From Halorubrum tebenquichense DSM 14210 (lineage in GTDB: Archaea > Halobacteriota > Halobacteria > Halobacteriales > Haloferacaceae): DNA of 44,230 nucleotides. Below are positions 19,404-38,678 of the stretch, piece after piece (position 1 is the stretch's first letter; each line of letters begins with the position of its first letter). The notes under the pieces are model-generated. The model did not search any database. It was not told the DNA's origin and saw nothing but the letters and a program-made list of their open reading frames with translations. The stretch is taken from positions 1 through 44,230 of the forward strand of contig NZ_AOJD01000079.1 of assembly GCF_000337415.1 (NCBI RefSeq). Reading direction: 5' to 3'. The translations under genes and the position numbers were made by a program.

Positions 19404-20333
19404 TCAGAGGACGACGTTGAACAGCAGGCCGATCAAGAGGATCCCGGTGGCTAGCGTCCCCGCGTAGGCGGCGATTAGTTCCTTCTGCATGACCTTCTTG
19501 AGGATCATGAACTGCGGCAGCGAGAGCGCGGCGACCGACATCATAAACGCGAGGCCGGTGCCGATCGGCAGCCCCTTTCCGATCAGCGACTCGACGACCG
19601 GAATGACACCGAGGATATCGGTGTACATTGGTACGCCGACTGCGACCGCACCGAAGACGCCCCACTGGCCCGAGAGGTAGGTCTCCACCAAGCGTTCGGG
19701 GAGGTAGCCGTGGATGAGCGCGCCGACCCCGACGCCGACGATGACGTAGGGAATGATCTCGAGAATGATCTCTTTAGCCTCGACGTAGGCCTCTTCGAGC
19801 CGTTCGCGTCTGGTCGGCTCGTCGATGTCGACCCCCGAGTCGCCGAACTCGAAGTCGTCGACGTAGCGGTCGAACCCCAATCGATTGAGAGTATAGCCGC
19901 TGGTCATCCCGATAGTAATCCCGCTGATCGCGTACAGCGCGGTCAGCTCCAGACCCACGACGCCCGGCAGCACGACGAGAGCGGCCTCGTTGATCATCGG
20001 CGAGACCGCGAGGAACGTGATCGTGATGCCGAAGGGGATGCCCGCGCCGACCATCCCGAGGAAGATCGGGATCGTAGAACACGAGCAGAACGGCGAGACG
20101 ATCCCTAACAGGGCAGCCAGCGCGTAGCCGGTAAACGCTGTCTTGCCGTCAAGATAATCGCGGATCTTCTCCGGCGGGAAGTACGTTCGGAGGTAGGTGA
20201 CCGCGAATATCACCGCCGTCAAGATAGCGAGGATCTTCAGAGTGTCGTACACAAAAAAGTGCGCCGCCGCTCTGGGGGCTCCCGTCAGCCCGATAGCGTC
20301 GACGACGTAGGTCGCGAACTTCTTGAAAACCAT
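19404..20333 (-). CDS. ArsP/DUF318-family membrane permease
   Basis: A 309-residue permease with about eight membrane segments in two halves. The signature SPFCSCSTIPIFLGM holds the paired cysteines of the ArsP/YraQ (DUF318) family, and the second half repeats the fold (VGVPMYTDILGVIPV). Bacterial ArsP exports trivalent organoarsenicals; other members serve unknown substrates. It begins six bases after the thioredoxin-like gene, forming an operon, an arrangement that recurs for this family. An organic or inorganic arsenite export role is inferred from family and neighbours. Confidence 0.85.
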   Translation of the reverse strand: MVFKKFATYVVDAIGLTGAPRAAAHFFVYDTLKILAILTAVIFAVTYLRTYFPPEKIRDYLDGKTAFTGYALAALLGIVSPFCSCSTIPIFLGMVGAGIPFGITITFLAVSPMINEAALVVLPGVVGLELTALYAISGITIGMTSGYTLNRLGFDRYVDDFEFGDSGVDIDEPTRRERLEEAYVEAKEIILEIIPYVIVGVGVGALIHGYLPERLVETYLSGQWGVFGAVAVGVPMYTDILGVIPVVESLIGKGLPIGTGLAFMMSVAALSLPQFMILKKVMQKELIAAYAGTLATGILLIGLLFNVVL

Positions 20334-20996: not shown

Positions 20997-21239
20997 TCAG
21001 GACTCCGCGTGGTCGGTGAGGATCGATTCGATGTGGTCGGCCGGCGGCGTCGTACCGTTGTGGACGATCTCCCCGTCGATCTCCAGCCCGGGTGGCGACA
21101 TGACGCCCTTTTCGGCGAGTTTGGTCATGTCTGACTCCTCGGTGACATCGGCATCGACCCCCAACTCCTCGACGACCGCCTCGGTCGTCTCCTTGAGCCG
21201 GGCGCACTTCCGGCAGTCGGCGTAGACGGTGATCTTCAT
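20997..21239 (-). CDS. thioredoxin-like small redox protein 2
   Basis: An 80-residue paralogue of the protein at 20340-20582, with active site DCRKC (C9-x2-C12) and GVMSPPGLEIDGE as the cis-Pro loop. The two share MKITVY, the KL-QKGVMS/AEKGVMS segment and the ending ES-I-T. It has its own promoter: a TATATATAAA-type stretch at 21299-21312 on the reverse strand about 60 bases upstream. Two copies around one permease suggest paired reductants or carriers. Confidence 0.83.
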   Translation of the reverse strand: MKITVYADCRKCARLKETTEAVVEELGVDADVTEESDMTKLAEKGVMSPPGLEIDGEIVHNGTTPPADHIESILTDHAES

Positions 21240-22682: not shown

Positions 22683-23069
22683 GGCCGATTTCGCCGCGCG
22701 CTGCGGTCGGCCGGGGCGTGCGTCGACTCGGCGCCGAGCGATCGGTTGAGTGGCAGCATATATGTCGAAATCACCCCAATATAACTATGTTATTTTACTA
22801 GCTACTCAGCTGTACGTGTGCTTCAATCAGAGTAAGTACGTTCAAACAAGATGGACAATATGATGCTCATAGGTCTACCGTAGGTCCTGTATCCGAACCC
22901 CTCGATGATGCCTCGATGCTTGAATAGCTACGTTCAGCGGCAATCAGCCTCTATCTCTGATTTCCGGAATCCGTCAGCGGATCCGCTGTTACCATAGTTA
23001 GATCTCCCGTCTACATTACACATGGTACGGATCGAAATTCTCTTTACGTTTGAGAGAATACTAAATTGT
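22683..23069. other. intergenic stretch before the first Rid-like gene
   Basis: About 390 bases of AT-richer DNA with no supported gene. The 11-base GTAGGTCCTGT at 22880-22890 recurs at 23548-23558, on the far side of the Rid-like gene. A TTTACG stretch at 23043-23048 could serve as the promoter for the ATG at 23070. Confidence 0.4.
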
Positions 23070-23522
23070 ATGTCGAACGAGATGGTCGGCGTTAGTGATC
23101 AGGCAAAACGAGAAAATAAAATATCTATTGCTGAATCGCTGAGCGAGGAGAGCAAGCGACAGCGTGACGGCATCGAGAACATCGGCGCGTTCGGAATGCG
23201 GACCGGTGAGTCGGATCTGATCTTTTTCCAGGGAATTCTTCCGGAGATCAACGGGGAAGTGAAGGGGCTGGAGACGACCGAAGAACAGATCGAAATGTGC
23301 CTTGACCGGCTCGAACTGATGCTCGAAAATCGTAACGCGTCGCTTGACGACGTGATGAAAGTCGAGGTCCAGCTCGCAGATACGGACGCGGCGTCGGCCG
23401 TCGACCCGGCGTACGAGTCGCGGTTCGACAACGTTGCGTTCCCGCCGCGAACTGTTGTCGGTGTCTGCTCGCTTCCCGGCGGCGCAGACGTCCAACTTGA
23501 CGTGATCGCGGCCAAAGAATAA
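23070..23522 (+). CDS. RidA-like (YjgF family) protein 1
   Basis: A 150-residue protein of the Rid family. The C-terminal half (FPPRTVVGVCSLPGGADVQL) carries the conserved Arg that binds the substrate carboxylate in RidA (PPR), then the LP-x-A strand. Classic RidA hydrolyses reactive enamines and imines. An N-terminal extension of about 25 residues precedes the domain (LSEESKRQRDGIENIGAFG). An ATG 16 codons upstream exists, but the ATG at 23070 sits better behind the TTTACG box. A close paralogue is at 42971-43426. A conserved Cys in VGVCSLPGG is shared by both. Confidence 0.85.
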   Translation: MSNEMVGVSDQAKRENKISIAESLSEESKRQRDGIENIGAFGMRTGESDLIFFQGILPEINGEVKGLETTEEQIEMCLDRLELMLENRNASLDDVMKVEVQLADTDAASAVDPAYESRFDNVAFPPRTVVGVCSLPGGADVQLDVIAAKE

Positions 23523-23957: not shown

Positions 23958-24566
23958 TCAGCGATCGCGTGTTCTGGAATCGAGTTGAGCCAGATCCGCG
24001 GGGGTGTTGACGTTCACGAGTTGTTCACGCACGGCAGCGGGCAGTTCACGGGCGTTGATCGTCGTCGTTTCCAGCCGGTTGAGGAGTTCTATCGGCCGCC
24101 GCTCACCGGTTTCGAGAAGTGACCGGATCGCTTTGAGGGTCGGTGCTGTCCTGTACCGTCCACAGAGTGGTTGAAGCTGTGCGTCGCAGTCTACCGGTAC
24201 GATCGCATCACCTTCGTCTGTCGCGGCGAGCGCCGCGAGGAGACGGCGATCGACGAGTGGGAAATCGCACCCGATGACGAACGTCCACTCGGATCGGCTT
24301 CGTTCGAGACCGTCTCTGATCCCGCCAAGTGGACCGATCGGCTCGGTATCGATAGTCCAACAGAGCCGCGTTTCGATTCCGGATACGGCCGCTTCGATGC
24401 GGGGACGCTGTGCTTCCCGACAGCTGATGAGGATCCGATCCGTCGACATATCGAGCGTATCGATTACCTGTCGTATTAGCGGCGAACCGTCGAACTCGGC
24501 GAGCGCCTTGTCGACATCGCCGAAACGCACCGATCGCCCGCCGGCGAGGACAAGTCCCGTGGTCAT
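23958..24566 (-). CDS. mobA: molybdenum cofactor guanylyltransferase MobA
   Basis: A 202-residue nucleotidyltransferase. The N-terminal GLVLAGGRSVRFGDVDKAL is the MobA GTP-binding signature (LAGG-x-S/G-x-R-G-x-DK), and GCDFPLVDRRLL holds the metal-binding Asp. MobA joins GMP to molybdopterin, making the bis-MGD cofactor used by all DMSO-reductase-family enzymes, including the Arr and Aio catalytic subunits encoded downstream. The ATG at 24566 starts exactly at the family N-terminus. It is divergent from mobB. Confidence 0.92.
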   Translation of the reverse strand: MTTGLVLAGGRSVRFGDVDKALAEFDGSPLIRQVIDTLDMSTDRILISCREAQRPRIEAAVSGIETRLCWTIDTEPIGPLGGIRDGLERSRSEWTFVIGCDFPLVDRRLLAALAATDEGDAIVPVDCDAQLQPLCGRYRTAPTLKAIRSLLETGERRPIELLNRLETTTINARELPAAVREQLVNVNTPADLAQLDSRTRDR

Positions 24567-24725: not shown

Positions 24726-25457
24726 ATGAAAGTTCTCAGTGTCGCCGGACCGTCGAATTCCGGGAAGACGACCGTCGTTGCGAGGCTCGCAGCCCGACTC
24801 AGCGACCGTGGGACGGTGGGAACCATGAAACGGCTCACCCACGAGCCGGACATCGATACCGACGGGAAGGATACCGCCAGACACCGAGAGGCCGGGTCGG
24901 TGCGTACCGTCGGCGTCACTGACGATGGGGACTGGTTCGGCACCGGTGACAGGTGGACGCTCGAAGATATGCTCAACGACTTCGCGCGCGAGTGTGACTA
25001 CGCGCTCGTTGAGGGGTTCAGTGAAAGCCGCCTTCCGAAGGTGTCACTCGGTGATCGATCGGCCGCGCCTCCGGTGGTGGCTACGGCAGCCGACGCCGAC
25101 GACCTCGCCCTCGGCGAAGTGACGGATATCATCGAGACGCTCCCGTCGTACGAGACCCCGGCGTCCCTCGTGGCGAAGACTCGTGTCTCACTCGAGTCGG
25201 TCGATCACGAGGGCGTCGCGACAGCCACCGTGCCGGTGGCCGAACTGGCTCCCACCGACGACGTGACGGCGCGAGTCGATGCGGCCAACAGGCGCCTCCG
25301 TTCGGTGGACGGCATTTGCGAGGCCCGCGTTCATCATCAGCAGTCGCTCTTCGACGAGCTTGACGACGTTGTTCATCTGGTCGTGCTGGCGGACGACACC
25401 GCGAGAGCGAACGAGGCGATCGGCGAAGCGCTTGGACGACTCTTCACGGCGGCCTGA
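24726..25457 (+). CDS. mobB: molybdopterin-guanine dinucleotide biosynthesis protein MobB
   Basis: A 243-residue protein. The first ~110 residues are the MobB P-loop GTPase (SVAGPSNSGKTTVVARLAARL, then GTMKRLTHEPDIDTDGKDTARHREAG and DYALVEGFSESRLPKV). MobB aids MobA in MGD synthesis. The tail beyond residue ~190 (GICEARVHHQQSLFDEL and HLVVLADDTARANEAI) resembles the second half of MoaE, the large molybdopterin synthase subunit, so this may be a MobB fused to a MoaE-like remnant; that part is uncertain. It is divergent from mobA. Confidence 0.88.
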   Translation: MKVLSVAGPSNSGKTTVVARLAARLSDRGTVGTMKRLTHEPDIDTDGKDTARHREAGSVRTVGVTDDGDWFGTGDRWTLEDMLNDFARECDYALVEGFSESRLPKVSLGDRSAAPPVVATAADADDLALGEVTDIIETLPSYETPASLVAKTRVSLESVDHEGVATATVPVAELAPTDDVTARVDAANRRLRSVDGICEARVHHQQSLFDELDDVVHLVVLADDTARANEAIGEALGRLFTAA

Positions 25458-25495: not shown

Positions 25496-26152
25496 CTACT
25501 GAAAAGCGGCGAGCGCGAGTTTCGATTCGACCGAGTTCAGCCGCTGGGACATCGCCGACTTCGTGATATCGAGCTCCGCGGCGAGCTCGCCGACGCTCGT
25601 CGCCCGCGGCGTCTCATAGTAGCCCGACGCGACCGCCATTGCGGCCGTCTCCTGTTCAATCTCGGTCAGCGTTGAGAGGTCGAGCGTGACGCGGTTCGAC
25701 CGGTCGCCGTCGACTGAGTCGATCCGCGTGAGACGGCGCAACGAAATTTCGTCCGTCGCCTCTCTGAGGTCGTCTATCAGCGCAGAGAGGCGGTCGCGGT
25801 CCGGAAGGAACGCCTCAATGACGACCGCCTCGTCGGTCACGTCTGTAATCTTCGGTATGCAGTCGTACTCGAAGAATATCGGGCAGTAACACTCAGAAGT
25901 GATCTCGGTTTTCGTGTGACGGATCTCGGCATCACCCGGCCCCGCCGCTGTCTTGTCGTGGGGCTCGCGCGTCGCTTCGGTGTGACACTCTCCGCCGGAT
26001 GACTGCCGGTCGATCCGGTCTGCGTCTCGACCGAGATCCTCGACGGGACAGGCGACCGCCCCGGATGCGGACAGCTCGAACTCGACGTAGAGACGACGGG
26101 TCTCCTCCGTGCCGTCATCCTCTCCGGTCGATGATCGCTCTGTCAGTCCCAT
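25496..26152 (-). CDS. NarO/DmsR-type Cys-rich HTH-10 regulator
   Basis: A 218-residue protein ending in the bacterio-opsin-activator-like HTH-10 domain (LTEIEQETAAMAVASGYYETP, then LAAELDITKSAMSQRL). The N-terminal half holds C35, C56 and SECYCPIFFEYDC with C88-x-C90-x7-C98. This CxnCxCx7C pattern is the one described for Haloferax NarO and DmsR, which activate denitrification and DMSO reductase genes when oxygen falls. The ATG at 26152 lies about 28 bases after a TTTTATACT box, so it is preferred to an upstream TTG. By position it is the best candidate activator of the arr operon. Confidence 0.82.
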   Translation of the reverse strand: MGLTERSSTGEDDGTEETRRLYVEFELSASGAVACPVEDLGRDADRIDRQSSGGECHTEATREPHDKTAAGPGDAEIRHTKTEITSECYCPIFFEYDCIPKITDVTDEAVVIEAFLPDRDRLSALIDDLREATDEISLRRLTRIDSVDGDRSNRVTLDLSTLTEIEQETAAMAVASGYYETPRATSVGELAAELDITKSAMSQRLNSVESKLALAAFQ

Positions 26153-26243
26153 ACTCGGTCCGTTCGACAAACTAGTATAAAATTCTGTCTCGGGTTATCG
26201 GCCTTCTGAACGGCTGAGAAGACGGAGTAAGTCAACTCGTTGC

Positions 26244-26579
26244 TCACTCCGCGTCGACGAGGTCGTCGATCCAGGTTAGCACTGCCATCGCTTTCGGGAA
26301 CCCGATCGTCGGCACAGCCAACAGGGCGACGTGTCGCAGCGCCTCGGGGTCGACGCCCTCCTCGAGCGCGCGCCGGACGTGCGAGTGGACAGCCCCCTCC
26401 GACTCTGACCCGGCCGCCAGCGCCAGTTTGACGAGGCGTTTCTCCTCGCCGTCAATCGGACCGGCTTCCGAACAGGCCTTCCCCAAGTCGGCGTATTCCT
26501 CCCACACGTCCGGATGCTCGGCCGCGAGGTCGCCGGCCGTTGACGGGAGTTCGTCGGTGTCTTCGATAGCGTCGGGCAT
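26244..26579 (-). CDS. carboxymuconolactone decarboxylase/AhpD-like protein
   Basis: A 111-residue helical protein with the CMD pattern LVKLALAAGSESEGAVHSHVRRALEEG and EALRHVALLAVPTIGFPKAM. The CxxC of peroxidase-active AhpD is replaced here (SEGAVHSH), so thiol chemistry is not expected, although the Glu and the His residues remain. Small CMD proteins are often hexameric with varied or unknown roles. It sits between two HTH-10 regulators on the same strand, each with its own upstream gap. Confidence 0.82.
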   Translation of the reverse strand: MPDAIEDTDELPSTAGDLAAEHPDVWEEYADLGKACSEAGPIDGEEKRLVKLALAAGSESEGAVHSHVRRALEEGVDPEALRHVALLAVPTIGFPKAMAVLTWIDDLVDAE

Positions 26580-26662
26580 ACGATTATATTCTGGAATCGG
26601 TGGTAAAAATCCAGACGACCGTTGCCACGAAGTGACGATACCGTCTCAATCGGTCCGGCCGG

Positions 26663-27067
26663 TCACTCTCTCCGGTCGAACTCGTCCGTCGAATCCGACG
26701 ACTCTTCGCGGGCGATCTCCTCGACCACCCGCCGAACGATGGTCGCCTCGGCGCCGTGAAGCCGCTGTGAGACCGCGGACTTGGAAACGTCGAACTCGGC
26801 CGCGAGGTCCGTGAGCGTCGCCTCCCGCGGGTCGGAGTAGTACCCGGCTTCCACCGCCCGAAGGAGCGTCCGACGCTGTACCGCGGTCAGCTCCTCGGGA
26901 TCGATCGAGACCGTCGACCGCTCCTCGTCGCTGATATCGCGGATCCGCGCCCCGTCGACGTTGAGGTCCGCGATGGTCCCCAGCACGGCCGCGATGTCGG
27001 CGCCGGGATCGATCTCTATCGAGACCGTGTGTCCGCCGCCGTGATCGTCCGCGTCGTTCGTGGCCAT
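26663..27067 (-). CDS. HTH-10 (bat-type) transcriptional regulator
   Basis: A 134-residue protein with a short N-terminal sensing region and an HTH-10 domain: LTAVQRRTLLRAVEAGYYSDP, then LAAEFDVSKSAVSQRLHGAE. It lacks the cysteines of the neighbouring NarO-like protein. Its promoter (TACTATAGTA, about 25 bases upstream) is a perfect palindrome. It faces the arr operon from the other strand, so it may control arr, itself, or both. Confidence 0.8.
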   Translation of the reverse strand: MATNDADDHGGGHTVSIEIDPGADIAAVLGTIADLNVDGARIRDISDEERSTVSIDPEELTAVQRRTLLRAVEAGYYSDPREATLTDLAAEFDVSKSAVSQRLHGAEATIVRRVVEEIAREESSDSTDEFDRRE

Positions 27068-27332: not shown

Positions 27333-27578
27333 ATGCGTCGAGACCATGAGGCTCCACCCGATATCGAAGACGCCAAGTTCGACGGCTGGGCCGAGAACCG
27401 GCTCGGCGACGTCGAACATGACACAGAACTGGGCAAAAAAATGGGAAAAGACGCCATCCGCCTTGCTCGGGGCGAGATGAGCGAAGAGGAGTTCCACGAG
27501 AAGTACCACGAGCAGGTAAAAAACGAGTTCGGTGTCGACGATCGACCGACGAAACCGGAGGGGTTCGACGATGAGTAG
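27333..27578 (+). CDS. small acidic protein of the ferredoxin N-terminal-domain type, first gene of the arr operon
   Basis: An 81-residue protein with no cysteines. The motif GKDAIRLARGEMSEEEFHEK, ending NEFGVDDRP, recalls a short domain that precedes Fe-S subunits or stands alone near molybdo-oxidoreductases in haloarchaea. It overlaps the catalytic subunit gene by eight bases, so it is translated with it. An assembly or docking role for the reductase is plausible but unproven. Confidence 0.65.
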   Translation: MRRDHEAPPDIEDAKFDGWAENRLGDVEHDTELGKKMGKDAIRLARGEMSEEEFHEKYHEQVKNEFGVDDRPTKPEGFDDE

Positions 27579-30309
27579 CGACGGACTCGACCTGACGAGG
27601 CGGGACGCGCTGAAGGCCGGCGGCGTCGCGGCCGCGGCGCTGGGGATCGGCGGCAGCGCGTCATTCCTGCAGGAGGCCGAAGCGCAGTCGACTAGCCTGG
27701 AGTACGAGGAGGTGCCGACGGCCTGCTGGATCGGGAAGATGGACTGTTCGGCCACCGCAAAGAAGGTCGGCAACCGAGTGATCAAGTACGAAGGCAATCC
27801 AGAGGATCCGCGGACAGAGGGCTCGCTCTGTCCGAAGGGACAGGCCCAGATCGAGCAGGTTTACAACCCCTACCGGGTCAAGGCCCCGCTGAAGCGGACC
27901 AACGAGAAGGGCCAGCATGGCGAGTGGCAGGAGATCAGCTGGGACCAGGCGATGGACGAGATCGGCGAGGACCTGAAGGCGAAACTCGAAGACGACCCCC
28001 GGCGGGTGGTCTTCCAGGTCGGCCGAAAGAAATCGCCGCAGTGGCAGGAAGACGCTTGGGTCACAGGGACGAGCAATAAGTACGGCAGCATGGAGAAGTA
28101 CGGCCACGGCGCGACCTGTTCCGACTCGGGATACCGCGCCCAGGAGCTGATGTTCGCCACCCACGGCGTCTCGGAGACCGACTTCGAGAACTGCGAGTTC
28201 TTCATCGGCTGGGGGCACAACATGACGCAGGGCGGTGGTGCACACCAGTGTCAGATCGTTTGGCCGAAGCAGATCGCGGACGCCCGCGACGACCAGGGAA
28301 TGGAGACTGTCGCCATCGATCCACAGCGTCGTAACTCTGGGCCCTACACCGACCAGTGGCTCCCGATCGAGCCGGGCACGGACATGGCGTTCTGGCTGGC
28401 GTTCAACAGCGTCCTTGTTCGCGAGGGGTACATCGACGAGGAGTACCTCACGACCGCCACGAACGCGCCGTGTCTCGTCGCGACCGAAGGCGACGAGGAA
28501 GGCCACATCCTCCGGACCGACGACGCCGAAGACCCCGGCGAGGAGTACACCTGGGCCGACGGCGAACTGGTCTGGGACGAACAGGCCGGTGAAGCGGTTC
28601 CCCACGAGGAGGCGTCGTCGCCCGAGAACGTCGCGCTGGAAGGGACCTACGAGGTCGACGGGACCGAAGCGCGGCCGGCCTTCGACCTGTACCTCGACCA
28701 GATCTCTCAGTACGACCCCGAGTGGGCCGCCGATATCACCGATCTCGACGCCGACACCATCAACGAGCTCGCCGTGAAGTGGGGCGAGAAGGCGAAGATC
28801 GGTGCCACCGTCGAGGTCGACGGCATTGAGATCCCCTACCGGCCGGTGGGGATGCACGGCTACCACGTTGCCCAGCAGGAGATGGGGGTCCCGACGACGA
28901 TGGCGCACTACCACGCCGCGATGCTGGTCGGGGCGGTCGACGTCGTCGGCTCCACGCGCGTCCGGAAGGCCAAGTACGACGGTCCCAAGGACTACCGCGA
29001 GCCGTTCCGCGATCAGGCGTTCCATCCCGAGAAGATCACACCGAACCCGGACGGACCGTCGCTGGGCGGGAGCATGTTCCACCCGATCGATTCGACGGCG
29101 TTCTCCCAGAGCCACGTCAGCCAGACGAACCCCGACAAGTACAACCTCCCCTACGAACCGGAGGAGATGGCGTGGATCGTCCAGATGGCCAACCCGGTCA
29201 CCTCGGCTCCGGGAATCGAGACCGTCATCGAGAGCATGAGCAGGGTCGACACGACCGTCGTCGTCGACCCGTGGTTGAGCGAGACGGCCGACGTCGCCGC
29301 AGACTACGTGCTGCCGGCGGCAACCGCCGACAAGCTCCAAGGCCCGACGGGTGGCTGGAGCGGCTACGCCGACATCGAGCACATCCGGTTCCCCTCGATG
29401 GACCCGCTGTGGGACAGCAAGCCCGACGCAGAGATCTTCATTGAGATGGCCAAGGCGGTCGACGCCTACGAGGAGTACGTCCTCGACATCAACGACGAAC
29501 TGGGACTCGACGGGACCGAGTACGCCTACTCCGGGGCTGACGAGACGCCCGACGACCCGAGCGAGTTCCTGCGTGACGGACTCGACCGGTGGGCGAAGAC
29601 CAAGGGCAAGAGCCTCGACTGGTTCCGCGAGGGCAACGTCATCACCAACGAGTGGGACGTCGGAGACGGCAACCGGTACGCCTACACCTGGGGGATGGAC
29701 AACGGCTACGGCGAATTCAATCCCTACGACGCCAAACACGAGTTCTACAGCGAGACGCTGTTCCGACTCGGCGAGCGCGTCGAGGAGCTGTTCGACGACT
29801 CGAAGTTCGACGACCCCGAGTCGGAGTTCCCCTACCTCCAAGACTACAACGCGTACCCGACCTGGCGCCAGCCGACGTTCAAAAAATCCCCCGAGGAGTA
29901 CGACTTGACGCTGTTCAGCTGGCACCAGATCGAGCACAAGCAGACCCGGACGGCGAACAACAAGCTGCTCAACGAAATCGCGCCGAAGAGCGCGTTTCGG
30001 CTGAACCCACAAGACGCGGACCGTATCGGTGTCGAGAACGGTGACGAGGTCGTCCTCGAAACCCACGACGCCCAGAACGACGAGGCGTATCAGGTAGGGG
30101 GCGTCGTGATGATCCAAGACGGCGTCAAACCCGGCACGGTCGGTGTCCCGCACCACCACGGGAGTTGGAAGGACCCCGAGAGCGAGGCGCTCGACGAGGG
30201 GCCGAGCATCAACTTCGCGATTCCCAGCGGGCCGGGCTACCTCGGCCTCGACAACGGCCAGGCCTTCCAGGTCCGTGCGAAGGTCGAGCCCAAGGGAGGT
30301 GACAACTGA
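27571..30309 (+). CDS. arrA: respiratory arsenate reductase-like catalytic subunit (DMSO reductase family)
   Basis: A 912-residue molybdopterin oxidoreductase. It opens with a Tat signal (TRRDALKAGGVAAAALGIGG), so it is exported folded. The Fe-S motif is CWIGKMDC then C87: C52-x6-C59-x27-C87, so the second cysteine of the usual C-x2-C-x3-C is a Gly. The likely Mo ligand is C183 in GATCSDSGY. The last domain (FSWHQIEHKQTRTANNKLL and later) is the cofactor-binding C-terminal domain. With an ArrB-like Fe-S protein, an NrfD anchor and a TorD chaperone next to it in an arsenic island, respiratory arsenate reductase is the best call; polysulfide, thiosulfate or tetrathionate reductase and ArxA are the alternatives. 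The ATG at 27571 begins the Tat peptide. Confidence 0.72.
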   Translation: MSSDGLDLTRRDALKAGGVAAAALGIGGSASFLQEAEAQSTSLEYEEVPTACWIGKMDCSATAKKVGNRVIKYEGNPEDPRTEGSLCPKGQAQIEQVYNPYRVKAPLKRTNEKGQHGEWQEISWDQAMDEIGEDLKAKLEDDPRRVVFQVGRKKSPQWQEDAWVTGTSNKYGSMEKYGHGATCSDSGYRAQELMFATHGVSETDFENCEFFIGWGHNMTQGGGAHQCQIVWPKQIADARDDQGMETVAIDPQRRNSGPYTDQWLPIEPGTDMAFWLAFNSVLVREGYIDEEYLTTATNAPCLVATEGDEEGHILRTDDAEDPGEEYTWADGELVWDEQAGEAVPHEEASSPENVALEGTYEVDGTEARPAFDLYLDQISQYDPEWAADITDLDADTINELAVKWGEKAKIGATVEVDGIEIPYRPVGMHGYHVAQQEMGVPTTMAHYHAAMLVGAVDVVGSTRVRKAKYDGPKDYREPFRDQAFHPEKITPNPDGPSLGGSMFHPIDSTAFSQSHVSQTNPDKYNLPYEPEEMAWIVQMANPVTSAPGIETVIESMSRVDTTVVVDPWLSETADVAADYVLPAATADKLQGPTGGWSGYADIEHIRFPSMDPLWDSKPDAEIFIEMAKAVDAYEEYVLDINDELGLDGTEYAYSGADETPDDPSEFLRDGLDRWAKTKGKSLDWFREGNVITNEWDVGDGNRYAYTWGMDNGYGEFNPYDAKHEFYSETLFRLGERVEELFDDSKFDDPESEFPYLQDYNAYPTWRQPTFKKSPEEYDLTLFSWHQIEHKQTRTANNKLLNEIAPKSAFRLNPQDADRIGVENGDEVVLETHDAQNDEAYQVGGVVMIQDGVKPGTVGVPHHHGSWKDPESEALDEGPSINFAIPSGPGYLGLDNGQAFQVRAKVEPKGGDN

Positions 30310-31190
30310 TGACACAACTCGGAATGGCGATCGACTTGGAGCGGTGTTACGGCTGCCGGGCCTGTATGGAGGCCTGTAAGGTCGAGAACAGCACGCCTCG
30401 CGGGGCGTTCTGGATGCACGTGTTCCGCTTCGAGGAGGGCGAAGCGCCGGAGACCACCCAGACCAACATGCCCCGGCCGTGCCAGCACTGCTCGGAGCCG
30501 TCCTGTGCGTCGGCCTGTCCGACCTCGGCGCGGTTCAAACGCGAGGAGGACGGTATCGTCCTCACTGACTACGACCGCTGTATCGGCTGTCGGTACTGCG
30601 AGATCGGCTGCCCGTACGGCGTCAACTACGCGCAGTTCGAACACCCTGAGGACGCTCAGTACGGCTACGGCTCCGAGTCCGTGGAACACGCCGGCGACGA
30701 CACGCATGGCTCGGGCACCTTTGCGGAGGCGCTCGGCGACGAGGCGCCCGGCGAGGGTAAGCCGCCGTGGCACGACCCGATCCACGATCAGCCTGTCGAG
30801 CCGCGGGGGACGCAGATGTCCGGCCCGCAGCCTGAGGGCGTGATGAGCAAGTGTACGATGTGTGCGCACCGGCAGGACAACCCGGAACGCGGCCAACAGG
30901 GGACGACCGCCTGCGCGCAGACATGTCCCGTCGACGCGATCAAGTTCGGAGACATGGAAGACCCGGATAGCGAACCCCGACAGCACCTCAAAGAAAAGAG
31001 TTCGTCGTCGACGTTCAAATTGCTCGAAGACCGCGGCACCGAGCCGAATGTCGTCTACATCGGCGACGAGCCCGGTGACGACGCCCGCACCATCGAGGAC
31101 GCGGACACGTTCAAGGACCCGCAGGAGGCCATCGAGATCGAAAAGAACCCGCCTGAGAGCCGCTCGACCGACGTGGAGGTGGGCCAATGA
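30309..31190 (+). CDS. arrB: four-cluster ferredoxin subunit of the arsenate reductase
   Basis: A 293-residue electron-transfer subunit. Cysteine groups for four [4Fe-4S] clusters are visible: CYGCRACMEACK, CQHCSEPSCASACP, CIGCRYCEIGCP and CTMC with CAQTCP. This is the ArrB/DmsB/PsrB pattern, passing electrons from the membrane subunit to the catalytic subunit. It has a long insertion rich in acidic residues between clusters and an acidic tail. It has no signal peptide and would leave the cell by riding with the Tat-borne catalytic subunit. The start overlaps the arrA stop (TGATG). Confidence 0.9.
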   Translation: MTQLGMAIDLERCYGCRACMEACKVENSTPRGAFWMHVFRFEEGEAPETTQTNMPRPCQHCSEPSCASACPTSARFKREEDGIVLTDYDRCIGCRYCEIGCPYGVNYAQFEHPEDAQYGYGSESVEHAGDDTHGSGTFAEALGDEAPGEGKPPWHDPIHDQPVEPRGTQMSGPQPEGVMSKCTMCAHRQDNPERGQQGTTACAQTCPVDAIKFGDMEDPDSEPRQHLKEKSSSSTFKLLEDRGTEPNVVYIGDEPGDDARTIEDADTFKDPQEAIEIEKNPPESRSTDVEVGQ

Positions 31191-32479
31191 GTACCCCGAC
31201 CAGCTCGGACCGGCGGACGGCGACGCTCGTCGATCCCGGCCCCCGCTACTACGCCATGTTGGCGATCGCCGGGCTCGTCGTGCTCGCGATGGTGTACAGC
31301 TTTGTGACCGTCCTGACACAGGGTCACGGAATCACCGGGTTACACAACTGGGGGACCGACGGCGGCGTCCCGTGGGGTCTCGATATCGGCGCGTTCAGCT
31401 GGTGGTCGGCGATGGGCGTCGGCGCCATCGCGTTGTCGGCGCTCATCCGCGTGTTCCGCATCGACGACTACCGACCGTACGCCCGGATCGGCGAGCTGCT
31501 GACGCCGCTGGCGTTCGGGGTCGGGTTCCTACACATCGTCTTCGACCTCGGGCAGCCCTTCCGCGTGCTCAACACGCTCATCTACCTGCCCCTACAGTCG
31601 CCGATCGCGTGGGACGTGATCCTGTTGGCGGGACTCGGGACGATTTCCGTCATCTACCTGATCGCGTCGCTCCGCGCGGACGTCTACGACCTCGCCGAGC
31701 GGGACGCGCTTCCGGCGGCGCTCGATCCGGTCTACGACGCGCTGCTGATCGGCTACGAACCGTCGGAAAATAAAGCGGGGAAAGACCTCGCGTGGTGGCT
31801 CGGAGCGCTTGTCCTCGTGTTCATCCCGGTCGTCGGCGGCGGGGTCGTCCCGCTGCTGTGGGGCCCCCTCGGTGTCAACATCAACTGGTTCGGTGCGATT
31901 CAGGGACCGACGTTCCTCGCGGCGAGCATGACGACTGGCGCGGCCGCGGTGCTGTTCGTCGGCTGCGTGCTCCGCTATGCGTACGGGCTCGACGACGTGT
32001 TCACCGACTACACGCTCCGGCGGCTCGGTGCCGTGACCGGTGCGTTCGCGTTCACCTACCTGCTGGGAACGTTCTACGAGATTCAGACCGGCTCGTTCGC
32101 GGCCGACATGGCTGATCCGAACGTCACCGCTCTCGTCTTCGAGGGACCGCTCGCGCCCCTGCTGGTGCTCGCGATCATCGCAATCGTCATTCCGACGGCG
32201 TACCTCACGATACAGCACGCCAGCGACCGATTCAGTCTGCTGGGAACGGTCCTCCTGACGGGCGTCATGCTCGTCGGAATCCTTCACCAGGAGACGTGGC
32301 TGATCGTCGGCGGGCTGATGTACCCCGACCTGCTGTACCCGGTCGGCGAGTACACGCCCTCGATCTACGAGTGGCTGAACCTGATGGGGACGACCGCGCT
32401 CGTCGCGCTCGTCCTGCTGGTGTTCGCCAAGACGCTCCCGATAGTCTCCGACCCCGCAGAGGTGAGATCGGACCGATGA
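31187..32479 (+). CDS. arrC: NrfD/PsrC-type membrane anchor subunit
   Basis: A 430-residue protein with about ten membrane helices, the NrfD/PsrC type that oxidises menaquinol and hands electrons to the ArrB-like subunit. Typical regions are WWSAMGVGAIALSALIRVF, GFLHIVFDLGQP and GILHQETWLIVGG. The gene overlaps arrB by four bases and the chaperone gene by four. A menaquinol-linked respiratory enzyme facing outward is the expected complex. Confidence 0.9.
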   Translation: MSTPTSSDRRTATLVDPGPRYYAMLAIAGLVVLAMVYSFVTVLTQGHGITGLHNWGTDGGVPWGLDIGAFSWWSAMGVGAIALSALIRVFRIDDYRPYARIGELLTPLAFGVGFLHIVFDLGQPFRVLNTLIYLPLQSPIAWDVILLAGLGTISVIYLIASLRADVYDLAERDALPAALDPVYDALLIGYEPSENKAGKDLAWWLGALVLVFIPVVGGGVVPLLWGPLGVNINWFGAIQGPTFLAASMTTGAAAVLFVGCVLRYAYGLDDVFTDYTLRRLGAVTGAFAFTYLLGTFYEIQTGSFAADMADPNVTALVFEGPLAPLLVLAIIAIVIPTAYLTIQHASDRFSLLGTVLLTGVMLVGILHQETWLIVGGLMYPDLLYPVGEYTPSIYEWLNLMGTTALVALVLLVFAKTLPIVSDPAEVRSDR

Positions 32480-33156
32480 GTTCCACGAACACGGAACGCG
32501 AGGCGGACGATCCCGCGTCGCGGGAGCCGGAGAAGCCGTTCGACGAGAGCCCGGTCGACGCACGGGTGTATCGTCTCCTCGGCGAGCAGCTGCTCACTCG
32601 GCCCGACCGCGAGCGGGTCGACGCCGTCGGGGCGTGGGCGCGGGAGTGGCTGGCGACTGCCGACTCGCTGCCGGTGGAGATCGAAACCGCTCTCAGGCGG
32701 ATCGCCGACGGAAGCGAGGCCGACATCGAACCGCTCCGAACGGCCTACACGCACCTCTTCCGTGGGGTCTCCGAGAGCGACCCCGACCCGCCGTACGAGT
32801 CGATGTACGTCGGCAGCGGGTTCTACAGCGAGACGACCACCGAGATCAGGCAGGGCTACCGGTGGGCCGGCGTGGACGTCGACACCGCTGCCGGCAACGA
32901 GCCGCCGGACCATCTCGGCCTCGAACTACAGTTCCTCGGTGAACTGATGACGATGGATGATACCGAGGCCGACTCTGACGAGCCCGACGTCGAGGACGCC
33001 AAGTGGTGGCTGCTGTACGAACACTTGGCCGAGTGGGTCCCGACCTACATGGCACGGATCCAGCAGGCCGACCCGCACGACTACTACGCGGGGCTCGTCG
33101 AACTCGCTCTCGCGCTGGTGAACGCCCACTGCGATCGGCTCGAGGGACGGAGGTAA
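32476..33156 (+). CDS. arrD: TorD/DmsD-family assembly chaperone
   Basis: A 226-residue helical protein. YRLLGEQLLTRPD, TAYTHLFRGVSESDPDPPYESMYV and DHLGLELQFLGELM match the TorD/DmsD pattern, including the ExxY/DH-x-x-x-E region. These chaperones hold the catalytic subunit until the molybdenum cofactor is inserted and guard its Tat signal. The ATG at 32476 overlaps the anchor gene stop by four bases. Confidence 0.9.
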   Translation: MSSTNTEREADDPASREPEKPFDESPVDARVYRLLGEQLLTRPDRERVDAVGAWAREWLATADSLPVEIETALRRIADGSEADIEPLRTAYTHLFRGVSESDPDPPYESMYVGSGFYSETTTEIRQGYRWAGVDVDTAAGNEPPDHLGLELQFLGELMTMDDTEADSDEPDVEDAKWWLLYEHLAEWVPTYMARIQQADPHDYYAGLVELALALVNAHCDRLEGRR

Positions 33157-33158
33157 CG

Positions 33159-33530
33159 ATGCACAATACCGACGTCGTCTACGAGATCGAGTTCGAAGCG
33201 GCCGACGACCGCCGTGAACGGCTCGACGCGTGGGTCGCGACGGACATCGTCGAATGGGCCGGGCACGAATCGGTCGCCGCTTTCGAGGTGCTCACCGGTG
33301 GCCGACGGGCGTCCGCGGACTCGAAGTTCGTCTTCGAGTTCGACACGCTCCGCGACTGGGCGGCGTTCGTCGAGAGCGACGCCCATGAGACCGCAGTCGA
33401 CAATCTTAGTGCGTTGACGACCGAGACGGAAACCGCGCTGTGGCGTCGCAGCTCCGTGTCGCTCGATCTGACCGTCGACGACGACAGTGAAATCCGACCG
33501 TACGCGGCCCAATCGAACCCAGTGATATGA
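33159..33530 (+). CDS. small ferredoxin-fold-like protein of the arr operon
   Basis: A 123-residue acidic protein of no named function that I can assign. The order of strands and helices (VVYEIEFEAADDRRERLDAWV, later FVFEFDTLRDWAAFVESDAHE) looks like a dimeric alpha/beta barrel of the antibiotic-monooxygenase kind. It has no cysteines, so it holds no Fe-S cluster. It starts two bases after the chaperone gene and overlaps the Mrp gene by four, so it belongs to the operon. A role in assembly is possible. Confidence 0.6.
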   Translation: MHNTDVVYEIEFEAADDRRERLDAWVATDIVEWAGHESVAAFEVLTGGRRASADSKFVFEFDTLRDWAAFVESDAHETAVDNLSALTTETETALWRRSSVSLDLTVDDDSEIRPYAAQSNPVI

Positions 33531-34591
33531 CAATGACAGTAGATTTATACGACGCGCTCGCCCGAGTCGACGATCCGATCCTCAACGACGACATCGTCTC
33601 GCTCAACCTCGTCGGTGACATCGAAATCGACGGGGATACCGCCCACGTCCCGCTCGCGCTTGGCGCACCGCACTCGCCGGTCGAGACCCAGATCACCGAA
33701 GACGTTCGAGCCGTCGTTCGGGAGGAGGGATACGAGCCGTCGCTGTCGGTCGACATCGACGACCAGACGCCCGCCGGCGTCGTCGACGGCGCGCCGAACG
33801 TGATTGCCGTCTCCTCCGGCAAGGGCGGCGTCGGGAAGAGTACCGTCGCGGTGAACCTCGCGACAGCGATGGCCGAGCGAGGGGCAAACGTCGGGCTGTT
33901 CGACGCCGACGTGTACGGCCCGAACATCCCGCGGATGCTCGGCGTTCACGACCACCCGGGGATGGCGGAGGATGACGAGACGATCATCCCGGTCGAGAGA
34001 CACGGGCTCAAGCTGATGAGCATCGGTTTCCTCGTCGGCGAGGACGACCCGGTCATCTGGCGGGGCGCTATGGTCGACAAGGTGCTCACGCAGCTGTGGC
34101 ACGACACTGAGTGGGGCGACCTCGACTACTTCGTCGTCGACCTGCCGCCAGGAACGGGCGACGCGCAGCTGACGATGCTCCAACAGATGCCGGTGTTGGG
34201 GGCGCTCGTCGTGACGACGCCACAGGACATCTCGCTGGACAACGCACGGAAGGGCGTCCGGATGTTCGACAGACATGACGCGTCGGTGCTGGGCGTCGTC
34301 GAGAACATGAGCGGCTTCGTCTGTGACGAGTGCGGAAAACGACACGACGTGTTCGCGAGCGGTGGGGGCCAACGACTCGCTGACGAGTTCGATCACCCGC
34401 TTCTCGCTCAGATTCCGCTTGATCCAGCGATCCAAGAGGGATGTGAGGTCGGCGAGCCCATCGTCTCCGACGGCGACTCGGAGCCGGCACGAGCGTTCCG
34501 AGAACTCGCCGAGCAGACGATGGATCAGGTCGGTCGAGAGCGGCGACGCTCGCACGCCGGGGGTGCCGTCGAGATTGAACCGGAGCCGTAG
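33527..34591 (+). CDS. Mrp/NBP35-type Fe-S cluster carrier ATPase
   Basis: A 354-residue protein with an N-terminal MIP18-like (DUF59) domain (ALARVDDPILNDDIVSLNLV) and a ParA-like ATPase. The deviant Walker A is SSGKGGVGKST, then FDADVYGPNIPRMLG and DYFVVDLPPGTGDAQLT. Near the end CDECGKRHDVFASGGG holds the CxxC that binds a bridging cluster in Mrp/ApbC proteins. The protein would deliver Fe-S clusters, here probably to ArrB and ArrA, since it is the last gene of the operon and overlaps its neighbour by four bases. Confidence 0.9.
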   Translation: MTMTVDLYDALARVDDPILNDDIVSLNLVGDIEIDGDTAHVPLALGAPHSPVETQITEDVRAVVREEGYEPSLSVDIDDQTPAGVVDGAPNVIAVSSGKGGVGKSTVAVNLATAMAERGANVGLFDADVYGPNIPRMLGVHDHPGMAEDDETIIPVERHGLKLMSIGFLVGEDDPVIWRGAMVDKVLTQLWHDTEWGDLDYFVVDLPPGTGDAQLTMLQQMPVLGALVVTTPQDISLDNARKGVRMFDRHDASVLGVVENMSGFVCDECGKRHDVFASGGGQRLADEFDHPLLAQIPLDPAIQEGCEVGEPIVSDGDSEPARAFRELAEQTMDQVGRERRRSHAGGAVEIEPEP

Positions 34592-34726: not shown

Positions 34727-34740
34727 CGAGAGTGGGTTAT

Positions 34741-35688
34741 ATGACGCCGAGAACCGAAGCGTTCTCCATGCGATCGCGTTCGCGACGGTCGGTCCTCGCA
34801 GCGCTCGCCGCCGGGGGCGGACTCGGGATCGCCGGCTGTCTCGGCAGCGACGAGGCCGTGTCGATCCTCGCCGCCGGGAGCCTCGCGGTCCTCGTCGATG
34901 ACCACCTCGGCGCGCGGTTCGAATCCGAGACGGGGATCGCCTGTCGCGGGGAGTACTACGGCACGAACGCGGTGATGCGAATGGTGACCGACGGCCGGAA
35001 GTATCCCGACGTCGTCGTGAGCGCGGACGCCGGTCTCTTGCGCGATCGGCTGTACGACAGCCACACCGCGTGGGATATCTCGTTCGCGTCCAACGTCGTC
35101 GGGATCGCCTACGCCCCCGACACGCGGTTCGGGGAACGACTGGAGGCGGGCGACCCGTGGTACGAGGTGGCGCGTGAGGCCGACCCCGGTGCCCTCGCGA
35201 TAAGCGACCCCGACCTCGACCCCCTCGGCTACCGCGCCATCCACGCGTTCCGACTGGCCGAGCGGGAACACGAGCTCGACGGCTTCGCCGAGACGGTCAC
35301 GGACGCCGCCTACCAAGAGCCTGAGGAGCCGCAGTTGCTCGCCGGCGTCGAGACGGGGAACCGCGCCGCGGCGGTCGTCTACCGGAACATGGCCACGGAC
35401 CACGGGCTTCCGTTTCAGCCGTTCCCGGAGGCGTACGACTTCTCGGACCCGGACTACGCCGATCGTTACGCCGAGGTCTCGTACACGACGGACGAGGGGT
35501 ACACGGCGACCGGGAGACCGACCGTGTACAACGCGACGGTCCTCGAGAGCGCGGACTCGCCGGACGCCGGGCGCGAGTTCGTCCGGTTCCTCGCGAACGC
35601 CGACGAGACCCTCCGCGAGAACGGGTTTGAGACGGACGGGTTCCCGAGCACGCACGGCGACGTTCCCGCCGAGGTGACGGACGGATGA
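34741..35688 (+). CDS. wtpA: molybdate/tungstate-binding lipoprotein (WtpA/ModA type)
   Basis: A 315-residue substrate-binding protein with a lipoprotein signal (RSVLAALAAGGGLGIAGC, lipobox IAGC). The body has VSILAAGSLAVLVD and DPDLDPLGYRAIHAF; the DP-x-GYR motif is typical of the archaeal WtpA/ModA group that captures tungstate and molybdate oxyanions. The ATG at 34741 is used; an ATG nine codons later would also give a full signal. It overlaps the permease gene by four bases. It supplies metal for the Arr and Aio enzymes. Phosphate-type binding is unlikely given the DP-x-GYR signature. Confidence 0.88.
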   Translation: MTPRTEAFSMRSRSRRSVLAALAAGGGLGIAGCLGSDEAVSILAAGSLAVLVDDHLGARFESETGIACRGEYYGTNAVMRMVTDGRKYPDVVVSADAGLLRDRLYDSHTAWDISFASNVVGIAYAPDTRFGERLEAGDPWYEVAREADPGALAISDPDLDPLGYRAIHAFRLAEREHELDGFAETVTDAAYQEPEEPQLLAGVETGNRAAAVVYRNMATDHGLPFQPFPEAYDFSDPDYADRYAEVSYTTDEGYTATGRPTVYNATVLESADSPDAGREFVRFLANADETLRENGFETDGFPSTHGDVPAEVTDG

Positions 35689-36506
35689 GCCTCGTCGACG
35701 CGACCCGATCGGTCACGAACTCCCGGCGGCTGCCGCCGCTGCTGGCCTTCGGGCTCCTCGGCGGGATCCTGCTCGTCTACTTCGCGCTTCCCTTCGTGGC
35801 GTTTCTCGGCCGAACCGGATCGGTCCCCGTCGTCGAGACCCTGTTGCAGGCCGGGAGCCGGACCGCAATCCGGAACTCGCTTCTCACCGCGCCGGTCGCC
35901 ACCGCGATCGCGACCGTGTTGGGCGTTCCGCTCGCGTACGTCCTCGCGCGCGAGACGTTCCCGGGGAAGCGGCTCATCGAAGCGCTCGTCGTGCTCCCGC
36001 TCGTCGTCCCGCCGGTCGTCGGCGGGGCGATGCTGCTCAGCGTGGTGGGCCGGTTCACGCCAATCGGCGCCGCCGCGGCGCGCGTGGGAGTGCCGGTGAC
36101 GGACAGCCTCCTCGGCGTCGTGCTCGCGCAGACGTTCGTCGCCGCGCCGTTCGTGGTGATCACCGCTCGCGCCGGATTCGGGGCCGTCGACGAGCGTCTC
36201 GAACAGGCATCCAGATCGCTCGGATACGGACCGATAGCCACGTTCAGGCGCGTGTCGCTTCCCCTCGCGAGTCGAGCGATCGTCGCCGGGGTCGTGCTCA
36301 CGTTCGCACGGGCAATCGGCGAGTTCGGCGCCACGATGATGGTCGCGTACAACCCCCGGACGATGCCGACACGGATCTGGGTCGATTTCATCGCCGGCGG
36401 TATCGACGCGATCGTCCCGCTCGCGCTCGCTCTGTTGGCGGTCACGCTCGTCGTGGTCGTCACGGTACAGCGGTTCGCCGGAGTTCCGACCGTGGTGGAC
36501 CGATGA
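35685..36506 (+). CDS. wtpB: molybdate/tungstate ABC transporter permease
   Basis: A 273-residue permease with about six membrane helices and the EAA loop of ABC importers (EQASRSLGYGPIATFRRVSLP). PLVVPPVVGGAMLLS and AIGEFGATMMVAYNP are typical of ModB/WtpB. It overlaps the binding-protein gene and the ATPase gene by four bases each. Confidence 0.9.
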   Translation: MSLVDATRSVTNSRRLPPLLAFGLLGGILLVYFALPFVAFLGRTGSVPVVETLLQAGSRTAIRNSLLTAPVATAIATVLGVPLAYVLARETFPGKRLIEALVVLPLVVPPVVGGAMLLSVVGRFTPIGAAAARVGVPVTDSLLGVVLAQTFVAAPFVVITARAGFGAVDERLEQASRSLGYGPIATFRRVSLPLASRAIVAGVVLTFARAIGEFGATMMVAYNPRTMPTRIWVDFIAGGIDAIVPLALALLAVTLVVVVTVQRFAGVPTVVDR

Positions 36507-37642
36507 CCCTCGAACTCGACGGGCTGACCCATCGGTACGGGAGCGAGCGCGCCCTCAACGACGTGTCGCTCGCGCTGGAGGACGGGGAGCTCGTCGCGCT
36601 GCTCGGGCCGAGCGGCTGCGGGAAGACGACCGTCGTCCAGGCGATCGCCGGGCACCTCGACCCGGCGTCCGGTCGAGTGTCGCTCCGCGGAACTGATGTT
36701 ACCGGCGTGCCGCCGGAGGATCGAAACGTCGGGATCGTCTTCCAGTCTCCGACGCTGTACCCCCACATGACCGTCGGAGAGAACGTCGCGTACGGACTGG
36801 AAAGCGGTGATCTCACGGCCGGTCAGGTGAGCGGACGCGTCGATCGGTACCTCGAACTGGTCGAGCTCGCCGACAGGCGAGACGCGTCTCCGAAGTCGCT
36901 CAGCGGGGGCGAGGCCCGTCGTGTCGAACTCGCTCGTGCACTCGCTCCCGAGCCGGACGTCCTCCTGCTCGACGAACCGCTGTCGGCGCTCGATAAGGGG
37001 CTTCGAGCGCGCCTCCGCGACGAGATCGTCCGCATCCAGCGGGAGACGGGCGTGACGACGCTGTTCGTTACCCACGATCAGGAGGACGCAATGTCGGTCG
37101 CGGATCGGCTCGTCGTCCTCCGCGACGGGGTGGTCGTCGCGGCCGGACCGCCCAGACGGCTCTACGAATCGCCCCCGAACCGCTTCGTCGCGTCGTTTCT
37201 CGGACGCTCGAACGAGCTCTCGGCGAGGGTCGAGAGCGACGAGTCGTCAACGGTGACGATCGGCGGGGCTGAAGTCGCCCTCGACGAGGTCCCGAGCGAG
37301 GTCACCGATACCGCCCGCGCGACGGTTCACATCCGACCGAGCGATCTGACGGTCGAGGCCGCTACGCAGCCCGACGGAACGTCGGGCGTCACTCGTGACG
37401 CGTTGGATCGGTCGGGCGCATCGGCCGACGGAGGTCAATCTGACGACCGATCGAGAGCGCTCGAGATGCGAGGTACAGTGACGCGGGTACGTGACGTGGG
37501 GCGCCGCTACGATGTCCGTGTGGAACTCGACTTGGGCGAGGTAGTAACCGTTGAGATGCACCGAGACAAACTGTCCCAGTCCGATCGGGTGACCGTCTCC
37601 GCCGCGGCAAGTGATCTCTCAGTGTTTCTTGTCTCGAATTGA
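36503..37642 (+). CDS. wtpC: molybdate/tungstate ABC transporter ATP-binding protein
   Basis: A 379-residue ATPase with Walker A LLGPSGCGKTTV, the Q-loop VFQSPTLYPHMTV, the signature SLSGGEARRVELARAL, Walker B LLLDEPLSALD and the switch His in FVTHDQEDA. The C-terminal third is TOBE-like, with a serine/asparagine-rich insertion, and would bind the anion or regulate transport. Its family includes ModC and WtpC as well as other importers; the upstream binding protein decides the call. Confidence 0.9.
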   Translation: MTLELDGLTHRYGSERALNDVSLALEDGELVALLGPSGCGKTTVVQAIAGHLDPASGRVSLRGTDVTGVPPEDRNVGIVFQSPTLYPHMTVGENVAYGLESGDLTAGQVSGRVDRYLELVELADRRDASPKSLSGGEARRVELARALAPEPDVLLLDEPLSALDKGLRARLRDEIVRIQRETGVTTLFVTHDQEDAMSVADRLVVLRDGVVVAAGPPRRLYESPPNRFVASFLGRSNELSARVESDESSTVTIGGAEVALDEVPSEVTDTARATVHIRPSDLTVEAATQPDGTSGVTRDALDRSGASADGGQSDDRSRALEMRGTVTRVRDVGRRYDVRVELDLGEVVTVEMHRDKLSQSDRVTVSAAASDLSVFLVSN

Positions 37643-37910: not shown

Positions 37911-38678
37911 ATGCATCCATACATCGCCGAGATCATCGGAACAGCGATCCTCATTATCTTCGGAGGAGGCGTCGTCGCCAACGTCGTTCTCAACGAGACG
38001 AAAGGAAACGGCGGCGGGTGGATCGTCATCACGTGGGGATGGGCGATCGGGGTGTTCATGGGAGTGTTCACCGTCAGCCAAGTCAGTGGTGGCCACATTA
38101 ACCCCGCCGTGACGATCGGTCTCGCCGCCGCCGGGTTGTTCGATTGGGCGCAGGTTCCCGCATACATCGCCGCACAGACCGTTGGCGGATTCCTTGGCGG
38201 CGTGGTGGTGTGGCTGGCGTACAAGGACCACTTCGCCGCCACGGAAGACGAGGCGGTGAAGCTGGCGATCTTCTCGACCAGTCCCGAAATACGGAACTAT
38301 TCGGCCAACCTGCTGACCGAGATCATCGGGACGTTCGTCCTGGTTTTCGGCGTTCTCTACCTGAACTCCGCCGGGTTCTTCGACGCCGCGTCGGGTGAAG
38401 TGCTCCAGTCAATCACCATCGACGGCCAGGAGGTCGGATTCGGCCTCGGCGCGCTGTCGGCGCTTCCGGTCGCGCTCGTCGTGCTCGGTATCGGACTGTC
38501 GTTGGGCGGTCCCACCGGCTACGCTATCAACCCCGCACGTGACCTCGGACCGCGCGTCGCGCACGCGATCCTCCCGTTTCCGGGTAAGGGACCGTCGGAC
38601 TGGGCGTACTCGTGGGTGCCGATCGTGGGACCGATCCTCGGAGCCCTCCTCGCGGCCGGGCTCTATCATCTGCTGTGA
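37911..38678 (+). CDS. aquaglyceroporin (MIP family), likely arsenite channel
   Basis: A 255-residue protein with six membrane helices and the two half-helix signatures of the family: GGHINPAVTIG (NPA) and GYAINPARDLGPRVAH (NPARD). The Asp after the second NPA box marks the glycerol-conducting GlpF branch, whose members also pass uncharged As(OH)3 and Sb(OH)3. In some bacteria an aquaglyceroporin (AqpS) replaces the arsenite pump in ars operons. Its place between the metal transporter and the aio genes suggests arsenite movement; glycerol uptake is the alternative. Confidence 0.85.
   Translation: MHPYIAEIIGTAILIIFGGGVVANVVLNETKGNGGGWIVITWGWAIGVFMGVFTVSQVSGGHINPAVTIGLAAAGLFDWAQVPAYIAAQTVGGFLGGVVVWLAYKDHFAATEDEAVKLAIFSTSPEIRNYSANLLTEIIGTFVLVFGVLYLNSAGFFDAASGEVLQSITIDGQEVGFGLGALSALPVALVVLGIGLSLGGPTGYAINPARDLGPRVAHAILPFPGKGPSDWAYSWVPIVGPILGALLAAGLYHLL

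Follow-up and report, generated by a model that had tools for sequence, protein, structure and literature searches.

A gene for a molybdoenzyme of Halorubrum tebenquichense DSM 14210 encodes a protein similar to arsenate reductases in which one cysteine of the N-terminal Fe-S cluster (FS0) is missing. This raises the question of whether the missing ligand is an accident of one sequence or the mark of a separate enzyme lineage, and what cluster and substrate such a lineage might have. The window analyzed here is the whole 44,230-nucleotide stretch of contig NZ_AOJD01000079.1 that carries the gene. The favored answer, to which a probability of about 0.5 is assigned, is that the protein, MopA (P0001), is the catalytic subunit of an exported, membrane-anchored CISM from a distinct haloarchaeal arsenic-oxyanion lineage, most likely a quinol-linked respiratory arsenate reductase with a three-cysteine FS0.

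The mopA reading frame extends from an ATG at 27571 to a stop codon ending at 30309 without internal stops, and its product contains a twin-arginine (TAT) signal, TRRDALK. The Fe-S motif reads C52-W-I-G55-K-M-D58-C59-x27-C87-P-K-G and departs from the C-x2-C-x3-C-x27-C motif of ArrA in that the second cysteine is Gly55. All codons concerned are unambiguous in the DNA (TGC at 27724 for C52, GGG at 27733 for G55, GAC at 27742 for D58, TGT at 27745 for C59 and TGT at 27829 for C87). In a profile alignment with the solved structures of ArrA (6cz7, C-Q-G-C-T-S-W-C) and PsrA (2vpw, C-E-G-C-F-W-R-C), G55 occupies the position of the second Fe-S cysteine of both enzymes, and C52, C59 and C87 pair with the remaining three. 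The sequence-only reading had described this motif with glycine in place of the second cysteine, and the codons and the structure-based alignment agree with it. The predicted molybdenum ligand C183 aligns with the residues that we take to be C193 of ArrA and C173 of PsrA.

Close relatives of MopA were found in 12 of 391 genomes of the class, the window's own genome included, and an order-level search yielded two further genomes. Halosimplex aquaticum and Natronorubrum bangense came from a pattern scan together with a plasmid search. The pattern scan also matched Halorientalis salina and Halomicrobium katesii, which were both taken to lie already within the resulting working set of 16 haloarchaeal loci. 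Identity to the window's MopA ranges from 93% down to 43% in this set and separates a near subgroup (58-93%) from a distant one (43-46%). In the GTDB-wide pattern scan, whose patterns were peptides of one sequence, only three haloarchaea matched. No close bacterial relatives were found on plasmids, where the bacterial matches listed reached about 30% identity or less, and no relatives were found on viral contigs.

The sequence CW[IV]GK[MQ]DC is present in all 16 loci, with a spacing of x26 instead of x27 before the last cysteine in the distant subgroup, and glycine takes the second cysteine position in each of the 15 distinct sequences of the clade that entered the tree. A cysteine at position 55 was searched for among the close homologues at the 16 loci and not found. 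The glycine codon varies between clade members (GGA, GGC or GGG), as do the cysteine and lysine codons. Because the changes in the glycine codon are synonymous, the residue itself is kept and not merely the DNA. A local mutation or a sequencing error was ruled out, as glycine is common to all homologues with varied codons. Relatives with a complete motif from other families of the phylum and from bacteria, used as outgroup, all contain C-x2-C-x3-C or C-x3-C-x3-C. In the maximum-likelihood tree the glycine proteins form one clade (support 100/100, present in 100% of the bootstrap trees) and the trait changes once between cysteine and glycine; its position relative to the larger families is less firmly resolved, with 83/94 for the nearest grouping and long branches. 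The suggestion that the glycine may define a separate haloarchaeal branch, made from the single sequence, is thus borne out by an alignment in which every clade member has it, and by monophyly.

The residues C52, C59 and C87 and the lysine following the last cysteine (K89) are invariant in the clade, and the Mo-ligand cysteine is conserved as well. Superfamily enzymes that lost the cluster, such as DorA and TorA, have lost its cysteines too, and a loss of the whole cluster of this kind is unlikely for MopA given its three invariant cysteines and lysine. Conservation extends to the remaining Fe-S cysteines, to the Mo ligand and to all 16 cysteines of subunit B, so FS0 is probably present but altered into an unusual cluster. 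The 16 invariant cysteines of subunit B fall into four standard motifs, so that only FS0 is odd. MopA combines three conserved cysteine ligands with a non-cysteine residue at the fourth position, the pattern of a [3Fe-4S]-type FS0. In single-cluster ferredoxins CXX(A/G)XXC is the recognized [3Fe-4S] motif, and aspartate at the same position gives a cluster convertible between [3Fe-4S] and [4Fe-4S], as in Pyrococcus furiosus (PMC6237146). Because of this precedent, [3Fe-4S] is the leading reading for FS0, and by analogy either such a cluster or one with another ligand is plausible. Residues that are invariant and specific to the clade include Lys56 and Asp58 beside the lost position and, farther away, C227 and C301, which lie in GGxHxC and TNAPCLV regions. 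Asp58 is a candidate ligand in the non-[3Fe-4S] alternative, though it is three residues from the lost position.

The genes surrounding mopA place it in an operon with an Fe-S subunit, an NrfD-type anchor and a TorD chaperone, which are the partners of a CISM, and the operon is situated in an arsenic island, with arsC, arsA, arsD, arsR and the gene for an ArsP-like permease as well as aioBA and acr3 on its flanks (Table 1). Of the 16 loci, 13 have the Mrp/ApbC gene next to the operon. The small Ferredoxin_N protein encoded upstream contains no cysteines, and its gene runs into the beginning of mopA; in Halobiforma lacisalsi, a gene with similar annotation stands before a Psr-like operon. Operons of the distant subgroup (L031:14847-16952 and its equivalents in L047-L051) contain, between the TorD and Mrp genes, a gene for a protein of about 700 residues with FlpD/HdrA-like and polyferredoxin domains that is absent from the window's subgroup. 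Two RidA-family (PF01042) genes (23022-23522 and 42950-43426) lie near the ends of the stretch formed by the Mop operon and aioBA. The ACR3 matches in both copies in the genome (G000:C79:43590-44677 and G000:C87:19397-20484) are split at the same place into two overlapping frames covering profile positions 1-204 and 180-327, as though each had been frameshifted by an insertion or joined in an unusual way; the first of them is the window's own copy, which continues past the window's end.

Table 1. Features of the Mop operon and the surrounding arsenic island, with positions in the window.
Feature	Position	Strand	Remark
ArsC-like arsenate reductase (low-molecular-weight phosphatase type)	14219-14674	+	below cut-off
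ArsA (ArsA_halo)	15407-17347	-	above cut-off
ArsD	17351-17734	-	above cut-off
ArsR/SmtB regulator	18464-18859	+	
ArsR/SmtB regulator	18922-19299	-	
ArsP_1-family permease	19404-20333	-	
Thioredoxin-like protein	20997-21239	-	
MobA-like protein	23958-24566	-	Mo cofactor nucleotide attachment
MobB	24726-25457	+	Mo cofactor nucleotide attachment
DmsR_N/HTH_10 regulator, CMD-family protein, HTH_10 regulator	25496-27067	-	upstream of operon
Stand-alone Ferredoxin_N protein (PF16947), 81 aa	27333-27578	+	kept upstream of MopA in near subgroup
MopA, TAT-exported molybdopterin catalytic subunit, Arr/Psr-like, 912 aa	27571-30309	+	
C52-WI-G55-KM-D58-C59, Gly at second cysteine position	27724-27747	+	invariant in clade; G55 codon 27733-27735
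C87, last Fe-S cysteine (CPKG)	27829-27831	+	
C183, predicted Mo ligand	28117-28119	+	conserved; aligns with Mo-Cys of ArrA and PsrA
Fe-S subunit B	30309-31190	+	16 invariant Cys (four [4Fe-4S] sites)
NrfD/PsrC-type membrane quinol subunit C	31187-32479	+	
TorD-family chaperone	32476-33156	+	
125-aa protein between TorD and Mrp	33153-33530	+	no family match
Mrp/ApbC-type Fe-S carrier ATPase	33527-34591	+	
Tungstate/molybdate-type ABC transporter (binding protein, permease, ATPase)	34732-37642	+	
MIP channel (aquaglyceroporin family)	37911-38678	+	
AioB-like Rieske subunit	38935-39516	+	92 bits vs TIGR02694 cut-off 95.65
AioA arsenite oxidase large subunit	39516-42104	+	above TIGR02693 cut-off
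ACR3 arsenite efflux transporter	43524-44230	+	runs off window

The domain content of MopA is that of the DMSO reductase (MopB)/CISM enzymes, with PF00384, PF01568 and PF04879 all above their gathering scores. By profile, the closest solved structure is that of ArrA (6.6e-47), with PsrA following at a small margin (6e-44), and ArrA is also the top fold match of an AlphaFold model built from a wider alignment (pLDDT 78, pTM 0.82). The equivalog models were all missed: MopA scored 113.5 bits against a cut-off of 1600 for ArrA (NCBIfam NF041714), 206.4 against 694 for PhsA (NF012032) and 20.8 against 359 for AioA (TIGR02693), and its partner is a four-cluster Fe-S protein, not a Rieske protein. 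The published discriminating motifs are (R/K)GRY for ArrA and XGRGWG for ArxA (PMC6549141). Neither is present in the window's MopA, which reads VGRKK at this site, and the distant subgroup reads IGRV. The GR common to ArrA and ArxA is invariant in the clade and missing from PsrA and PhsA. The sequence-only reading had called the protein ArrA-like; the likeness stands, with ArrA nearest by both profile and fold, and the name ArrA does not, given the missed cut-off and motif.

The residues Arg165, His189 and Lys198 of ArrA presumably line the arsenate pocket; the pocket histidine and the Mo cysteine of MopA align with those of ArrA, and Lys198 is replaced by Tyr188 in the window's subgroup. Around and after the Mo cysteine (residues 183-190), the near subgroup reads H-G-A-T-C-S-D, where ArxA has H-S-S-M-C-S-D, and the distant subgroup has N-K-M like ArrA. 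These ArxA-like and ArrA-like segments in the two subgroups hint at a divergent direction of the reaction.

Arsenic genes recur in varied arrangements near the homologues of both subgroups. Eight of the 16 loci have clear arsenic neighbors, one an ACR3 fragment and three an ArsR-type regulator only, while four have none. In two other genomes of the genus AioA, ArsD and ACR3 lie within about 11 kb of mopA, and Halosimplex, Halomicrobium and Halorientalis have ACR3 near the homologue. Within the distant subgroup, N. bangense contains arsR and an arsC-like gene upstream and arsD and arsA downstream, and an ArsA above its cut-off adjoins the homologue in another genome. With about one to four full copies of ACR3 or ArsD per 3.5-Mb genome, the chance of finding either within 15 kb is estimated at a few per cent per genome, for loci that are not fully independent, being related, but that differ in arrangement. 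MopA probably belongs to a separate haloarchaeal arsenic-redox CISM lineage; it probably reduces arsenate, and its FS0 would be either a [3Fe-4S] cluster or one with a non-Cys ligand.

In the proposed enzyme, the second FS0 ligand would have been changed to glycine in the ancestor of the lineage. The complex would consist of subunits A, B and C, served by the TorD chaperone and the Mrp Fe-S carrier, and would be exported and anchored in the membrane. Electrons from quinol would enter through the NrfD subunit, cross subunit B by way of its four [4Fe-4S] clusters, and reach FS0 and then a Mo-bisMGD ligated by Cys183. C52, C59 and C87 would be the only cysteine ligands of FS0; as glycine replaces the second ligand, the cluster would most likely be [3Fe-4S], or else [4Fe-4S] with a non-cysteine ligand on the fourth iron, for example the clade-specific Asp58 or solvent. 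Either form would shift the potential of the cluster. Arsenate reduction is preferred as the direction, with modest confidence, because AioA already serves arsenite oxidation in three of the genomes. Several points weigh against the arsenate reductase reading, namely the missed ArrA cut-off and (R/K)GRY motif, Tyr188, the small margin of ArrA over PsrA, and the loci with no arsenic genes (4/16) or an ArsR-type regulator only (3/16). Earlier reports describe haloarchaea that oxidize arsenite and reduce arsenate, together with their aio and arr genes (Rascovan 2016 and Ordonez 2018, as cited in PMC8563766, PMC5430908 and PMC6650914). That this literature credits haloarchaeal arsenate respiration to 'arr' genes, which may or may not belong to the MopA lineage, also counts against the reading.

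An unlikely rival is that MopA reduces a sulfur compound (polysulfide, thiosulfate or tetrathionate) or another oxyanion and lies among arsenic genes by happenstance. By profile, PsrA and PhsA come close behind ArrA, four loci lack arsenic neighbors, and an unaffiliated 'Deep' haloarchaeal CISM (HTSR_0627), which may or may not be of the MopA family, has been tied to thiosulfate (PMC5437934). However, the GR motif is that of Arr and Arx and not of Psr and Phs, a search through the annotated neighbors revealed neither a rhodanese nor a sulfurtransferase, and the recurrence of arsenic genes in different arrangements extends to both subgroups. It is also unlikely that the same enzyme, with the same altered cluster, runs in the opposite direction as a quinone-linked, Arx-like arsenite oxidase complementing AioBA: XGRGWG is absent, AioA is already available for this reaction in three of the genomes and no arxB2-like gene was seen beside mopA, even though the near subgroup resembles ArxA at the Mo cysteine and ArxA, as the sister of ArrA, shares the A-B-C-TorD layout (PMC6683785). 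An ordinary [4Fe-4S] cluster with another cysteine such as C227 or C301 as fourth ligand, and with little functional change, is highly improbable; both cysteines occur throughout the clade and are missing from relatives, but C227 is far in sequence from the cluster, at a position that we take to be a loop around the molybdopterin in relatives.

Beyond the favored arsenate reductase reading, it is tentatively proposed that the clade is a haloarchaeal family of arsenic-respiring molybdoenzymes whose FS0 became, in one ancestral step, a cluster with three cysteines when the second ligand was lost, where AioA lacks the fourth, and whose subgroups diverged toward arsenate reduction and arsenite oxidation. 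In the literature searched, the missing second cysteine is not mentioned and no biochemistry of a clade member was found. Electrons in enzymes of this superfamily reach the molybdenum by way of the N-terminal cluster, and a ligand loss fixed in nature within an arsenic-linked lineage makes it possible to test cleanly how cluster type sets direction and potential, with the AioA of the same gene island, which lacks a different ligand, as a neighboring comparison. The results suggest that haloarchaea hold an arsenic-redox enzyme that is missed by the ArrA and AioA models tested here.

Among known systems, the respiratory arsenate reductase ArrA of Shewanella sp. ANA-3 (PDB 6cz7) is closest to MopA in profile, fold, aligned GR, histidine and Mo-Cys residues, CISM partners and arsenic neighborhood, and differs in having the second cysteine and (R/K)GRY, in a model cut-off that MopA falls far short of and in belonging outside the clade. 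The anaerobic arsenite oxidase ArxA shares the GR motif, a CISM operon and, with the window's subgroup, HxxxCSD round the Mo ligand; in contrast to MopA, it contains C-x2-C-x3-C and XGRGWG and occupies a separate branch. PsrA and PhsA resemble MopA in their A-B-NrfD type operon, TAT signal and Cys-ligated molybdenum, whereas their Fe-S motif is canonical, PsrA has GHG in place of GR, and MopA stays well below the PhsA cut-off. The N-terminal cluster of AioA is also held by three cysteines in an arsenic enzyme, and is a [3Fe-4S] cluster of about +270 mV (PMC3758308). The initial comparison of the MopA cluster with that of AioA holds loosely: AioA, the window's copy included, keeps cysteines 1-3 and lacks the fourth, whereas MopA lacks the second, and AioA has a Rieske partner instead of subunits B and C and lies on a distant branch. 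In the CXX(A/G)XXC ferredoxins it is the second cluster cysteine for which glycine goes with [3Fe-4S] (PMC6237146), although their fold is another one and x2 instead of x3 follows this position. Finally, two haloarchaea, Halomicrobium urmianum and Halorubrum sp. BOL3-1, have plasmid-borne B-C-A operons (L054 and L055) that also encode a CISM with NrfD and TorD, one of them with Mrp, but their catalytic subunit is larger (1085-1093 residues), keeps the second cysteine (CGQCNTFC), stands in another gene order and falls on a separate branch; these operons may be the arr of the published haloarchaeal literature.
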